Assembly (NCBI GenBank): GCA_003662985.1
Contig: QMZD01000108.1
Location: forward strand, 1 to 6,453
Reading direction: 5' to 3'
DNA length: 6,453 nt
Source of the DNA: Archaeoglobales archaeon
GTDB taxonomy: Archaea; Halobacteriota; Archaeoglobi; Archaeoglobales; Archaeoglobaceae
In this document: positions 624 to 6,453 of the stretch, one piece after another
Numbering within the stretch: position 1 is the stretch's first letter
Layout: each line of letters starts with the position of its first letter
Position numbers and translations under genes: made by a program
The notes under the pieces: generated by a model
Seen by the model: only the letters and a program-made list of their open reading frames with translations
The model's database searches: none
What the model was told of the DNA's origin: nothing

Positions 624-2786
624 GTGGTTGTAAGCAAAGCCGTGTTTTTGGCACTTGCAGCACTGCTTTTCTTCCCAACCATAGCCGAAGCATACTATGA
701 CCCACCGGGGCCACCAGCAATAGAGGTCAGGGTATACATAGATGGAATTTTGCTTCAAGAGAGCATGGATGATGGCTACAACGGTGCTGCTGACATAAAA
801 ATAGATTATAAAGTAATTCAGAGAAATCAAGAGGTCAGCAAAGGTTCTAGGGAGGTGTACTATGACTGGGATGTATATAAAGGTGGGTTTATGCCCCTTT
901 CAAGAAAGATACTCGTCTACACCCAGAGAGAATGCTGGCCGATGAAAGAGGTAACACTAAAGCTGAATTTGAAGGAAACTGGGGTTTTTTTAGATAAAGC
1001 AATAGGAGAAAATGCAGTAACACTTAATCATGCTGGAGAGGCGTTCGTAAACGTTGGGAAAGTGAATGTCTCCGTTGAAGTTGAAATAGTTCCCATAGGT
1101 GCCGCTTCTGAAAAATGCTCGTGGTTCTACGATCAGCCTAACGACTATGCAAGCAGTATCGTAACCCATTCGGGTGGCTACATCTACGACTGGCAGCTTG
1201 CAAACATGATTAAGATGTGGATAGTGGACAAAGGCTACGCCAACATGATTTTCATATTCAGCCAGTGCTTTGGAGGGGGCATGATCGACGATCTGAAGGA
1301 TAAGCTGGACGGAACGGGTGATGCAGCTTTTCTCAGCGCTTCAAAACATGATGAGTCAGCGTATGGATTGGGAGATTCGTATAATCCAGATTTCTCTCCG
1401 GAATTAAAGAAACGGGGTTTTACAAAACCTGAAACTTACTATCCAAAGGAGGTAAGTGAAGAACTCGAAAAATCAGAGAAGCCAACCATTAAGGAGATTG
1501 CCAGAATGACAGAAAAGGAAGATGCAAATGGACCTTACGGAATTTACAAGGAAGACATCGAACATCCCCAGTATACTTCCATAGGTAGGGGAGACGACAT
1601 AAGAATTGGGAAGAAAACTGATGGCTCGGATGTTGCAAGCAAGCATGCAATTCTTTTCGCTGGCGATGCAAATGCCCTGCGCCACTGGAACAACATAGAC
1701 AGAATGTACAAAGCATTGAGAAAGCAGGGCTTTACCGATGAGGACATAATTGTGCTTGCGGGAGATGGTAAAAAGCGATCCGATGGCTCGGATGCTCCGG
1801 CATATGTAGATGGCCCGGGAACGAAGAAAGCTCTGTACGAGGCGATTCAGAATGTGAGCAAGAAAATGAATAAGAATGAACAGTTTGTTTTCTGGGTTTC
1901 GGATCATGGCAACAATGAGCGTTATGAGGCCACACTGAATAAAGCGATAAAGGATCCCGTAAGAGAACCCATACCTCCAAAGAAAACTGCTAAAAACGGG
2001 AAGCTTACATGGGATCTTAACAGTGATTTTCTGAAAGCTATGGCAAGGGATCCGGAAAACGAGCCGTATGTCAGCATCATCGTTGAACCCCCAGCTCAGG
2101 CTGAAGAAATAAGCTTCTTTGAGAACGTGGAACTATACCTCAACGGAGAGGAGCTCTCTCTTGAGCTGATCGAGCCGATTGTTGCGTACGATGATAATCC
2201 TGACCTTGACGGATACGAGCTTGTGTATCCAACGGATGAAAGACTTCTTAAATCGGATAACCTCATCGAAATCGGCTGGGGAGGAAGTGTTGAGAAATTC
2301 AAGGAATACGAGGTGCTTGCGCTCCAGATAAGTACAGGTGGTATTACGGAGGCTGTTGCGGATTTAAATGAATCCGAAATAAGTGAAGAGCCAACCTTGT
2401 ATGAATTGCTCGTGGAGAAAAAGGACGAATACAACGAGAACGTTAATGCGGTGCCTGGGATGATAAAAAGCATAATTGGAAATGAGAGGATAAACATCGA
2501 GATAGCTTGTGAAGATGGTACCCTGATTGTTGGGGCTGCTACCGAAAACGCTTATGTTACGGAATTTGCCAAGAGTGGTATCTCCGATCCAACGATCAGA
2601 GCGTGGACGACAGAAAAGGTTGTGAGGGAAGTAGTGGAATCAAAAGATTTTGTCAATGCGGTGATGAATGCAATAAAATCTGGAGATATAAAATATGAGG
2701 GCGTAGGCTTCGTGAAAAGCTTAAAGATAAACATCATGAGATCTTTGATGGGATTGTACGATACGATCATAGGAATGTTAGGGTAA
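624..2786 (+). CDS. Secreted caspase/legumain-like protease, apparently circularly permuted
   Basis: A 720-residue protein starting at GTG 624, six bases after a GAGGTG ribosome binding site (612-617). Residues 1-23 form a Sec signal peptide (hydrophobic VFLALAALLFFPTI, likely cleavage after AEA), so the product is exported. Residues about 30-160 look beta-rich. Clan CD (caspase/legumain C13-like) protease motifs follow: a strand ending in the putative nucleophile, MIFIFSQCFGGGMIDDL with Cys215; SASKHDESAYG (238-248) in the place where this clan has its specificity-pocket loop; then a strand HAILFAGDAN (341-350), a second strand DIIVLAGDGK (374-383), and FVFWVSDHGN with the putative catalytic His428. 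Known members run His half then Cys half; here the Cys half comes first and no second Cys motif follows His428. His182 (THSGG), 33 residues before Cys215, is an alternative partner. Residues about 484-580 look like a beta domain; 590-720 are mostly helical. The motifs are seen, the clan is recognised by motif, and permutation and activity are inferred. It appears monocistronic. A pseudoenzyme is possible. Confidence 0.8.
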   Translation: MVVSKAVFLALAALLFFPTIAEAYYDPPGPPAIEVRVYIDGILLQESMDDGYNGAADIKIDYKVIQRNQEVSKGSREVYYDWDVYKGGFMPLSRKILVYTQRECWPMKEVTLKLNLKETGVFLDKAIGENAVTLNHAGEAFVNVGKVNVSVEVEIVPIGAASEKCSWFYDQPNDYASSIVTHSGGYIYDWQLANMIKMWIVDKGYANMIFIFSQCFGGGMIDDLKDKLDGTGDAAFLSASKHDESAYGLGDSYNPDFSPELKKRGFTKPETYYPKEVSEELEKSEKPTIKEIARMTEKEDANGPYGIYKEDIEHPQYTSIGRGDDIRIGKKTDGSDVASKHAILFAGDANALRHWNNIDRMYKALRKQGFTDEDIIVLAGDGKKRSDGSDAPAYVDGPGTKKALYEAIQNVSKKMNKNEQFVFWVSDHGNNERYEATLNKAIKDPVREPIPPKKTAKNGKLTWDLNSDFLKAMARDPENEPYVSIIVEPPAQAEEISFFENVELYLNGEELSLELIEPIVAYDDNPDLDGYELVYPTDERLLKSDNLIEIGWGGSVEKFKEYEVLALQISTGGITEAVADLNESEISEEPTLYELLVEKKDEYNENVNAVPGMIKSIIGNERINIEIACEDGTLIVGAATENAYVTEFAKSGISDPTIRAWTTEKVVREVVESKDFVNAVMNAIKSGDIKYEGVGFVKSLKINIMRSLMGLYDTIIGMLG

Positions 2787-2921: not shown

Positions 2922-3722
2922 TTAAACTCTTAGGGAATCCTCTTTTCCGGTGTATATAAAACCGCTAAAATTGCTCAAATCACCTTTCACTACGGCAAAA
3001 ACGTTATATCTTTCTCTGATTTTCTCCAACTCTGTAGAAGTGTAGATTTTGGGAGAAATCAGAAGGAGAAAGTTATTCTTTAAAATGGCAAAATCAGCCT
3101 CCGGAAAATCATCTCTCACATCTTTTTCGGTGAAAAGCTCCTCATTTGCCTTCCAGAAATCATCCCCTAAGGTCTGATCGTGAGGTTGTAGAAGTATGTA
3201 ACCCTCATCGATAAAAATAACGTTTGCTGCAGGATTTTGCGATTGGAAATCACTTGTAACTGCCGAAACTAATGGGAAAGCGCAGAGATAAGCATCGTTA
3301 ACTCTGATATTGCATTCCTGTGTCAGCCCGGTATCCCAGCCGGAATCTATATAGCGTTTATCGGGAGGTAGTATCTCCGTTTGGAATCCTTTTTCCTTGA
3401 ATTTTCCTGCTAGCTTTATAAGGGCGTCATAAAACCTTTTTTGTCTCTCCTCCTCTTTTCTGATCGCCTTTTTAATTTTTTTCTCGGTGAGGTTTATTCC
3501 TCCCTTCATTGATTGGAAATAGTTTCTCCAGCAATCAATCGCTTTGCCCATTATGGACTCGACAATGTTTCTCTCTCCGTTAAATGCCCTTACGGCAATC
3601 TCTAGAAATATCGTTTTCATACATTCTTTAAATTCTGATCTTACGGCCTCAACGTATTCTGATGTTGCATTGTGATCACCTAGAACTTTTTGTTCTTCAT
3701 AATCTGGGATTTTCTCATTCAT
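2922..3722 (-). CDS. Hypothetical soluble protein, 266 residues
   Basis: The frame opens at TTG 3731, but I choose the ATG at 3720-3722. The ribosome binding site GAGAAGG ends directly against the TTG, whereas it lies nine bases before the ATG, a normal spacing. A TATA-like AAAATAAAAATATC lies at about 3766-3781. The protein has no signal peptide or membrane segment. Residues 20-75 look helical, with VEAVRSEFKECMKTIFLEIA and a Trp/aromatic patch CWRNYFQ. Residues 79-112 are strongly basic and charged (KKIKKAIRKEEERQKR) and may form a coiled coil. The second half, from 115, is alpha/beta, with strands such as ANVIFIDEGYILLQP (166-180), FAILKNNFLLLIS (211-223) and NVFAVVKGD (240-248). The C-terminal half is reminiscent in layout of a small alpha/beta nuclease-like or ligand-binding domain, but no catalytic signature is recognisable and I assign no function. 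It converges on the protease-like gene; no operon partner is visible. Confidence 0.8.
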   Translation of the reverse strand: MNEKIPDYEEQKVLGDHNATSEYVEAVRSEFKECMKTIFLEIAVRAFNGERNIVESIMGKAIDCWRNYFQSMKGGINLTEKKIKKAIRKEEERQKRFYDALIKLAGKFKEKGFQTEILPPDKRYIDSGWDTGLTQECNIRVNDAYLCAFPLVSAVTSDFQSQNPAANVIFIDEGYILLQPHDQTLGDDFWKANEELFTEKDVRDDFPEADFAILKNNFLLLISPKIYTSTELEKIRERYNVFAVVKGDLSNFSGFIYTGKEDSLRV

Positions 3723-4116
3723 TTTGAACAACCTTCTCTCTTTTATCTTGATTATTAAATTTGTGTGATATTTTTATTTTTTGTTGTTATTCTCCTAAAA
3801 CTATCAATTCTCGACTACAATCGCTGTGTGGAGTCATAAATCTATCCAAATTTTGTGCCATGTTATCTAATTTTTGATGTAAAGATTGTCTAGGGGGTGT
3901 TCAATTAGTTAATATTTTGTCAGAAAATTATAGAATTATAGTTTTACAAGAACCAAAGAGATGTATTTAACTTAGCCCTAGTTTTGGTAGAGAGGTCTTA
4001 GACTATAAAAAATCCAGTCATATAAAATTCACTAATTTTAGAATAGGGTGATAAACCTGGCGATTAGTTACCCTAAGTCAAACTTCAAGCTAAAGTTTTA
4101 ATAAATTCATTAATAA
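3723..4116. other. AT-rich intergenic spacer, no gene seen
   Basis: About 390 bases between divergent genes without a plausible coding frame on either strand. It holds the likely promoter of the minus-strand gene (about 3766-3781), an imperfect inverted repeat at 4044-4075 and the AT-rich promoter of the gene at 4117. CTAGGG (3890-3895) and CCCTAG (3976-3981) are inverted 80 bases apart but are too short to define a mobile element. No RNA gene or C/D-box pair was recognised. Confidence 0.5.
4044..4075. repeat. Imperfect inverted repeat upstream of 4117 gene
   Basis: TAGGGTGATAA (4044-4054) is matched in reverse complement by TTAGTTACCCTA (4064-4075), with perfect hexamers TAGGGT/ACCCTA at the outer ends. 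It lies about 40-70 bases before the start at 4117, upstream of the TATA-like sequence, which would suit an operator or a weak hairpin. Function is unknown. Confidence 0.3.
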
Positions 4117-4855: not shown

Positions 4856-5041
4856 GGCACGAGGACCCATTGGCGAAATAGACGGACTTTCGTGATTCAT
4901 TCAAAAAGTGGTTATACAAAGCATGTTAGCAAAGACACTGAGGACTACATTAGTTACTTGAACCTCGAAGAATCATCATGTGCTAGTAGAAGTTATTGAG
5001 AAGTTTTTAGTTGGAAGTGTCTAGCTAGAAGATACTCCAGA
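4837..5041 (+). pseudogene. Decayed N-terminal fragment of an archaeal tyrosine integrase
   Basis: Two overlapping frames together resemble the N-terminal SAM-like DNA-binding domain of archaeal tyrosine recombinases. The frame from 4837 reads LAGFERHEDPLAK, a stop at 4879, then TDFRDSFKKWLYKAC and a stop at 4927. The next frame, from about 4910, reads YTKHVSKDTEDYISYLN and continues to a stop at 4997. Joined by a one-base shift near 4910-4918 this gives the familiar pattern of an F-x-x-W-L helix, then S-K-x-T and a Y-[IV]-S-Y-L helix. The first residues come from the tRNA-like sequence, as in integrases whose 5' end overlaps the attachment site. The catalytic C-terminal domain (R...HxxR...Y) is absent. 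Its end overlaps the 3' end of the HNH gene. The call is by pattern only; the short length keeps confidence moderate. Confidence 0.4.
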
Positions 5042-5609
5042 AGTCATCTTTTTTCCTTCTAGTTGATGTTCTTTTTTTGGTCTTCTTGGATGTGGTCTTC
5101 TTTGCTTTACTCTTTGTTTTGGTTTTGGCGCTACCGCCTTTTTTCGTAGAAGAACTGCGTTTCCTTCTACTTGTCCTTGAGCTGGTACTAAATGGATCTG
5201 AAAAGGTGGGTAGTTCGACCTTAGGTAAATCGACTTTGAGGTAACCACCACTAGCAGAAAGACCGCCTTTAACTTCTGTAACTTTTTTACGGTCTCTTAG
5301 TATGTTCGTAATCTGCTGTTTGACTTTTTTATTTCTTTTTTTGACTATTTCTTTCAAACGTGCTTGGGTTATCTTCCCATCGTGAGCGTCTCTATGGTGA
5401 TTAGCACATAATGCGATCAAATTACTACCTATATTTCTTCCACCCTTTGATACTGGTACGATATGATGTATGTCATATGCTTTAGCCCTACAACCAGGTA
5501 TTTCACACTTACCGCCTACTACCTGTTTTATTTTCGCTTTTTTAGCATTTGTTAATGCCTCTCTTCTTATTTCAGCGTCTGTTTTGTCATAAAATGGGTC
5601 AAACACCAT
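5025..5609 (-). CDS. HNH endonuclease with basic low-complexity tail
   Basis: A 194-residue protein with an HNH (beta-beta-alpha metal) nuclease domain at residues 32-78. C35-x4-C40 and C68-x2-H71 are the likely structural zinc ligands; DIHHIVP (46-52) carries the catalytic His49; SKGG follows, then N63 in SNLIALC, and HHRDAH supplies the final His of the motif, so the active site looks intact. HNH enzymes cut DNA with a divalent metal and occur in restriction systems, phages, plasmids and homing elements. Residues 80-112 are a basic helix; 118-140 hold a linker with KVDLPKVELPTF; 143-188 are almost entirely Lys, Arg, Ser and Thr, likely disordered and nucleic-acid binding, before a hydrophobic end DDFWSIF. 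The ATG at 5607-5609 is preceded by GGAAGGGAT, and only one base separates it from the stop of the upstream small gene, so the two are co-transcribed. The specific target is unknown. Confidence 0.9.
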   Translation of the reverse strand: MVFDPFYDKTDAEIRREALTNAKKAKIKQVVGGKCEIPGCRAKAYDIHHIVPVSKGGRNIGSNLIALCANHHRDAHDGKITQARLKEIVKKRNKKVKQQITNILRDRKKVTEVKGGLSASGGYLKVDLPKVELPTFSDPFSTSSRTSRRKRSSSTKKGGSAKTKTKSKAKKTTSKKTKKRTSTRRKKDDFWSIF

Positions 5610-5954: not shown

Positions 5955-6026
5955 CGGACCCGCCGGGAGTTGAACCCGGGTCTGAGGCTCCGAAGGCCTC
6001 CAGGATATCCGCTACCCTACGGGCCC
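5955..6026 (-). tRNA. tRNA-Arg (UCG)
   Basis: A full 72-base cloverleaf on the minus strand. The acceptor stem pairs GGGCCCG with CGGGTCC (one G-U), discriminator G; the D arm carries GG at the usual place; the anticodon arm is GAGGC-CTTCGGA-GCCTC with anticodon TCG (plus-strand 5991-5993), reading CGN arginine codons; the variable loop is four bases; the T arm is CCGGG-TTCAACT-CCCGG. No intron and no encoded CCA, as usual in archaea. Short T-runs downstream (minus strand of 5936-5947) probably end the transcript. It sits between the HNH-containing region and the archaellin gene. Confidence 0.96.
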
Positions 6027-6263: not shown

Positions 6264-6453
6264 ATGAAAAAATTGAGAAAGGACGAGAAAGGTGCGATCG
6301 GTATCGAAATACTGATCGTCTTCATTGCCATCGTATTAGTGGCGGCAGTGAGTGCAGCGGTTCTCATCCAGACAGTTGGCTTCCTACAGCAGAAGGCACT
6401 TGCAACAGGAAGAGAGACAACCAAAGAGGTTGCTAGTGGCCTTAAGATTACAA
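6264..6453 (+). CDS. flaB: Archaellin (archaeal flagellin), N-terminus only
   Basis: Sixty-three codons from ATG 6264 to the right edge; the rest lies outside the window. The start is fixed by GGAGGTG (6252-6258), five bases upstream. The protein begins [15 protein letters not shown]: a short positively charged class III signal peptide, cut by the preflagellin peptidase (FlaK/PibD type) after Gly10, followed by the hydrophobic helix [20 protein letters not shown] that forms the filament core, and then [20 protein letters not shown], typical of euryarchaeal archaellins. The product is exported, processed and assembled into the swimming filament (archaellum). A single or first archaellin gene of a fla/arl cluster would be expected to the right. 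The outer glycosylated domain is not visible. The family call is secure; which paralogue it is cannot be told. Confidence 0.95.

Follow-up and report, generated by a model that had tools for sequence, protein, structure and literature searches.

The window analyzed here is a stretch of 6,453 nucleotides from an Archaeoglobales archaeon (contig QMZD01000108.1), and its subject is a gene on the forward strand for a 720-residue protein whose peptidase core appears to carry its two halves in reversed order. In clan CD peptidases the catalytic histidine is followed by the catalytic cysteine; in this protein a motif scan placed Cys215 first, 213 residues ahead of His428. The open reading frame (ORF) and the motifs that the first-pass annotation had read from it, FSQCFGGG (with Cys215), SASKHDES, HAILFAG (strand 1), DIIVLAGDGK (strand 2), and WVSDHGN (with His428), were all located in the translation, and a motif-pattern scan of the whole protein returned one Cys and one His motif, in agreement with the earlier statement that no second Cys motif is present. 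Residues 1 to 25 form the sole strongly hydrophobic stretch of the protein, and computed hydrophobicity, the only criterion used for this call, predicts a signal peptide, as expected for the exported protein that had been proposed. The features of the gene are listed below; row counts refer to a conservation alignment of 85 rows (82 proteins and three loci), and the sister family is described in the next section.

613-618, + strand: possible ribosome-binding site GAGGTG, read by eye, upstream of the GTG start
624..2786, + strand: permuted-peptidase gene, 720 residues, GTG start, with full-length relatives
624..692, + strand: predicted signal peptide, about residues 1-23, from hydrophobicity
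714..1097, + strand: C2-like domain, residues 31-158, with a C2 fold in the fold test
1134..1571, + strand: Cys half of the peptidase core, about residues 171-316, matching Pfam C13 and the sister C-half profile
1167..1169, + strand: His182 in THSGG, rival catalytic histidine, unconserved
1266..1268, + strand: Cys215 in FSQCFGGG, predicted nucleophile, C in 84 of the 84 rows reaching the position
1335..1358, + strand: SASKHDES loop, residues 238-245, counterpart of AARHDExSW in the sister family
1572..1637, + strand: linker, residues 317-338, connecting EHPQ at the former C terminus with strand 1 at the former N terminus, with the rotation optimum at residue 327
1638..1913, + strand: His half of the core, residues 339-430, matching Pfam C13 and the sister N-half profile
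1680..1685, + strand: Arg353-His354, possible S1 pocket, aligned with Arg-His on helix 1 of legumain-type enzymes
1905..1907, + strand: His428 in WVSDHGN, predicted catalytic histidine, H in 85 of 85 rows
1941..2342, + strand: beta-sandwich domain, about residues 440-573, from a fold search, bearing the acidic loop D523, D527, D529, and E532
2391..2762, + strand: SCP2-like domain, residues 590-713, with an SCP2 fold in the fold test

Order of the two core halves

The Pfam profile for peptidase family C13 (PF01650) scored 33.4 bits against the whole protein, above its cut-off of 22.8, and matched two stretches. Separate profile searches on each piece, as the first-pass annotation had proposed, showed that both halves match C13 in swapped order: residues 165 to 330 matched profile positions 128 to 190 (22.3 bits; E = 1.1e-4), and residues 335 to 445 matched positions 2 to 44 of 258 (19.0 bits; E = 0.0011), so that the single halves fell slightly below the cut-off and the whole protein above it. 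A six-frame search of the genome with the same profile gave 20.3 bits, also below the cut-off. Residues 25 to 164 and 446 to 720 had no Pfam match, no C14 family appeared in the Pfam scan of the protein, and NCBIfam returned no match for it. The Cys half corresponds to the end of a canonical domain, and the His half, which holds strand 1, helix 1, strand 2, and strand 3 with His428 in that order, corresponds to its start; a permutation explains why Pfam reports two partial, swapped matches. Additionally, a profile of 37 sequences matched asparaginyl ligases, legumains, and one metacaspase in the PDB, and in all five of the alignments listed both halves fell on the same chain, the second half on its early part and the first half on its later part.

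A profile built from distant permuted relatives was scanned against the GTDB species genomes and yielded 26 loci, among which both motif orders occurred, 10 permuted (L009 to L018) and 16 canonical (L019 to L034). The canonical proteins, a sister family for which we found no family name, are exported-looking proteins of bacteria and Methanosarcinales. They differ from the permuted proteins in having the ordinary order of strand 1, strand 2, His, and Cys, with the histidine 42 to 52 residues ahead of the cysteine. Both groups share RYW or RYY on helix 1, HG, QC(F/Y)xGGM, and an A-x-x-x-x-E-x-S loop; in the sisters these read RYWND, HG, QCF(S/A)GGM(M/I/L)D, and A(A/S)xxxExS(W/Y), with a closing E-x-P in most. 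Several sisters also have a conserved stretch ahead of the peptidase (WFFFVDExPGANWEHKASYI and similar).

Half-profiles were built from the 16 sisters only, one from the part before the histidine and one from the part after it, with E-values given for 1000 sequences. On the window protein the N-half profile scored 46.6 bits at residues 340 to 429 (positions 3 to 102 of 103; E = 2.5e-13) and the C-half profile 39.3 bits at residues 184 to 254 (E = 3.2e-11). Over 1000 shuffled versions of the protein the top scores were 6.3 and 5.6 bits, respectively (689 and 556 shuffles scored at all), and the match is thus beyond chance. Among 86 proteins, which include the window's own (P0002) and one duplicate (L018 = P0047), the N-half profile matched 85, the C-half profile 83, and both profiles 82 at an E-value of 0.01. 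The Cys half came first in all 82 doubly matched proteins, and the His half came first in all 16 sisters.

When the window core (residues 165 to 445) was rotated at every second start point, the highest-scoring single hit against the sister profile rose from 52.2 bits in the native order to 89.8 bits at start residue 327, where profile positions 3 to 180 were matched in one piece. Five other permuted cores gained similarly (45.1 to 79.5, 38.7 to 80.2, 35.6 to 77.8, 37.3 to 66.0, and 57.6 to 104.9 bits), and two canonical control cores gained 0.0 and 0.9 bit. Together with the extents of the half-profile matches, the rotation locates the cut in the residues that directly follow His428 and the new joint in the segment from EHPQ (residues 313 to 316) to strand 1 (residue 339). 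As judged from these sequence comparisons, the halves are homologous to two parts of one C13-type domain, swapped, across a single-clade family of about 80 proteins.

Among the 50 PDB matches listed for a full-length model there were C2, SCP2, and beta-sandwich structures only and no peptidase of this fold; because the accessory domains filled these matches, the core was modeled separately. Folded alone as a single chain, it was predicted as one compact domain containing both halves (predicted template modeling score, 0.94); a structure prediction was one of the checks that the first-pass annotation had proposed. The model matched permuted caspase-2 and legumain structures, with the engineered permuted caspase-2 (8vp4 and 9c2y) the best among the matches listed, and its predicted fold is the alpha/beta fold of clan CD caspases and haemoglobinases. 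A linker of about 22 residues would also be compatible with a domain-swapped dimer, in which the halves complete each other between two chains. However, the single-chain model puts both halves into one domain with the high score given above, and we regard such a dimer as improbable.

Origin and distribution of the permuted proteins

Trees were built from cores in canonical order and rooted on three legumain-type proteins. In a 91-row tree the permuted proteins formed one group of 70 rows with a value of 96 in the Shimodaira-Hasegawa-like approximate likelihood ratio test (SH-aLRT), and in a tree of 64 of these 91 rows they formed a group of 44 (bootstrap, 99; SH-aLRT, 97), with a single change in every one (100%) of the 200 bootstrap trees. 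The canonical rows needed three changes, which nests the permuted group among the canonical ones. Ten proteins were left out of the 91-row tree (the window protein's duplicate, fragments, near-copies, and P0080, which has a long insert), as were six missed by the motif pattern, loci repeating listed proteins, and the sister L021. Because the permuted halves were swapped before alignment, junction columns could add some signal to the grouping; only columns filled in half of the rows were kept. The simplest account is one permutation event for the whole permuted group.

The nearest relative of the window protein, with 84% identity, lies in an Archaeoglobus metagenome-assembled genome (L010). A genome of the same genus carries a copy that is also 84% identical, and the window therefore very likely belongs to Archaeoglobus. 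The window protein matched 98 of 294 genomes in a sample of the phylum. The matches spanned the core in five of them, namely, the window's own genome, a second genome of its genus, and three that belong together to another genus of the family; in a sixth the match covered residues 337 to 431 only, and the protein there has the canonical order (L075). The remaining matches, among those listed, fell at residues 562 to 720. The SCP2-like C-terminal part (2391-2786, residues 590 to 720) matches open frames of 155 to 300 residues in many genomes of the phylum (loci L039 to L058), and these many separate frames indicate that the SCP2-like domain is a common separate module.

In the family of the Thermococcus locus L011, 16 of 94 genomes matched: the full core was covered in 13, and the other three gave a match split into two pieces, a partial match, and a 33-residue remnant. 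This patchy presence suggests transfer or frequent loss. Bacterial members include Dadabacteria, Acetothermia, Phycisphaeraceae, and Omnitrophota. One genome of the L011 family (G371, C1:1760100-1760961) holds a copy in two open frames that looks broken, and a 437-residue Thermococcus protein (P0030) starts after the Cys half. In the permuted member P0033, a PKD domain separates the beta-sandwich from the C-terminal domain.

The source assembly (2.15 Mb) is divided into 383 contigs, which might prompt the view that the swapped order is an artefact of assembly or gene fusion. The same order was seen in many independent genomes, including isolates, and in the 13 full-length core matches among the 94 genomes above. 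We rejected an artefact on the basis of the isolate genomes and give this explanation next to no credence.

Catalytic residues and proposed function

His428 and the glycine that follows it were present in 85 of 85 rows and Cys215 in 84 of the 84 that reach it, as expected of the conserved His-Cys dyad of clan CD. A competing reading in the first-pass annotation paired Cys215 with His182 in THSGG, 33 residues upstream, as a small local unit, with residues 339 to 430 being something else. That spacing is near the canonical His-Cys distance of 42 to 52 residues. However, position 182 is poorly conserved (S in 31, K in 15, N in 12, and H in 9 of the 85 rows), the stretch holding it begins past the His motif of the chain in alignments with legumain-type PDB entries, and residues 340 to 429 match the strand 1-to-His segment of the sisters over its full length. 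The pairing with His182 was thus rejected, and we consider it barely credible.

Arg353-His354 fall on the Arg-His of legumain helix 1, where legumain Arg44 sits at the place at which caspases carry their S1 arginine (PMC4357240). Arg353 was kept in 56 and His354 in 61 of the 85 rows. For the clade of the window, cleavage after Asn or Asp is our best guess from this alignment; the preference may differ elsewhere. The acidic loop D523, D527, D529, and E532 was invariant in a 37-row alignment.

Overall, the C13 matches of the two pieces, the core model, the sister half-profiles, the rotation, and the single clade uphold the circular permutation first proposed from the sequence, and the protein is likely to be a secreted cysteine endopeptidase with a circularly permuted legumain/caspase-like domain in which the Cys half precedes the His half. 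The cut would lie directly behind His428, with a linker of about 22 residues connecting the former ends, and both halves would, according to the model, fold into one alpha/beta domain that brings Cys215 and His428 into one ordinary active site. By analogy with C13 peptidases, as which it probably works, the thiol of Cys215 would attack the peptide bond with the assistance of His428, as in legumain and caspases. The signal peptide suggests a location outside the cell. PF07589, a PEP-CTERM anchor, was found in 4 of the 38 proteins scanned, and the tail of P0047 is PEP-CTERM-like, below the NCBIfam cut-offs; both are consistent with a place outside the cell. The C2-like and SCP2-like domains may be lipid- or partner-binding accessories. 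Archaeal members attach the C2-like domain at the chain start adjacent to the active site, and a short member (P0034) starts in this same loop directly after its predicted signal peptide. Since the domain now starts in a loop next to the active site, it is plausible that a C2-like domain at the rim gates the site. We put forward more tentatively, at somewhat less than even chances, a broader proposal: a natural clan CD lineage of archaea and bacteria with a single origin and with Cys before His, cut in the active-site loop, whose new terminus lets C2-like and other domains plug in as a gate.

Several observations weigh against the permutation reading or weaken it. The E-values of the individual stretches in the PDB profile alignments were weak, and a Foldseek search with the core returned no PDB chain at an E-value of 0.001. 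Four of the 86 proteins fell short of a match to both half-profiles at an E-value of 0.01 (P0030, which starts after the Cys, P0066, P0076, and P0083), and the uniform order in the 86 is partly a matter of selection because the queries used to collect them were themselves permuted. In the 64-row tree, bootstrap support is low (61) at the branch closest to the root. Arg353 is missing in 29 of the 85 rows, and the invariance of the acidic loop that follows the core is confined to the 37 closer rows, since only 42 of 85 rows have D at D523. Placing Arg353-His354 by eye on Arg44-His45 of legumain, Asn42 presumably corresponds to Ala351 and is not kept. Asn42 is described as the third active-site residue of legumain and is said to vary in clan CD (PMC9604545).

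The permuted domain could also be real without being an endopeptidase, acting as a transpeptidase or ligase, like some plant legumains, or as a binding protein that keeps the dyad. Asparaginyl ligases and the glycosylphosphatidylinositol transamidase (8imx_K) are among the solved chains closest to the core, and the accessory domains resemble binding domains, whereas the full conservation of the dyad argues against an inactive enzyme. Because the active site of this fold is the same in ligases and proteases, sequence does not tell them apart; we judge a function other than that of an endopeptidase to be unlikely, though the most probable of the alternatives considered.

Compared with family C13 (legumain, asparaginyl endopeptidases, and ligases), the endopeptidase that we propose is alike in its Pfam score above the cut-off, the Arg-His on helix 1, the HG motif, and the Cys at a strand end, but it differs in the order of the halves, the 213-residue distance from Cys to His, the lack of an Asn42 counterpart, and its other accessory domains. 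Clan CD members have His before Cys, in C13 within one continuous domain; because Cys215 precedes His428, we place the protein in a permuted sister lineage of C13-like peptidases rather than among ordinary C13 or clan CD members. The order of the catalytic residues along the sequence is one criterion for classing peptidases (PMC12445089). The type III metacaspases (C14) of algae of secondary endosymbiosis, in which p10 is moved in front, are described as a natural rearrangement of the caspase-like fold (PMC5756287). They are alike in placing the later part of the fold first but have the whole p10 ahead of an intact p20 that holds both His and Cys, whereas here the cut lies between the two residues, which stand in different halves. 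In the engineered circularly permuted caspase-2, as its design is described (PMC7760212), the small-subunit part precedes strand 1 and a linker joins the old ends in one chain, as in the window protein. Those proteins (PDB 8vp4 and 9c2y) are man-made and cut between the large and small subunits, and judging from these boundaries the histidine is expected to remain ahead of the cysteine.

Family C13, the caspases, the type III metacaspases, and engineered permuted caspases are already known. No natural permutation separating the catalytic histidine from the catalytic cysteine in clan CD was seen among the papers listed in searches of the open literature; most subscription papers lay outside this scope, and the result is no proof of absence. 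The word stem "permut" is absent from the accessible parts of two clan CD reviews (PMC4357240 and PMC12445089). A conserved reverse-order family that keeps the dyad intact, alongside an unpermuted sister that still exists, would demonstrate that the fold tolerates a cut between its catalytic residues and would be a natural counterpart to the permuted caspases of engineers. Because both the sister and the permuted forms exist, the effect of the moved chain ends on folding and activation is directly testable.

Neighboring genes

Inspection by eye revealed no neighbor common to all nine permuted loci listed. Both ORFs that flank the gene in the window also lie beside the permuted gene in L010, with 57% and 62% identity. 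In Thermococcales (L011:2-5340, L012:1-3421, and L013:1965-5392) the permuted gene adjoins a GH1 glycosidase, with GH4 and a PIG-L type de-N-acetylase nearby; GH1 and GH4 were identified by Pfam in all three loci, and PIG-L was tested in L011 only. These glycan-degradation neighbors are a lead towards the breakdown of outer glycoproteins or polymers in Thermococcales. This lead does not extend to the window, which is without GH1, GH4, or PIG-L neighbors and contains the following other features.

1-378 and 2922-3731, - strand: flanking ORFs, no Pfam family above cut-off
5025-5609, - strand: HNH endonuclease with a long Lys/Arg/Ser/Thr-rich tail (PF01844; E = 6.5e-8)
5955-6026, - strand: tRNA-Arg(tcg)
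6264-6452, + strand: start of an archaellin gene, cut by the window end (PF01917; E = 3.7e-15)
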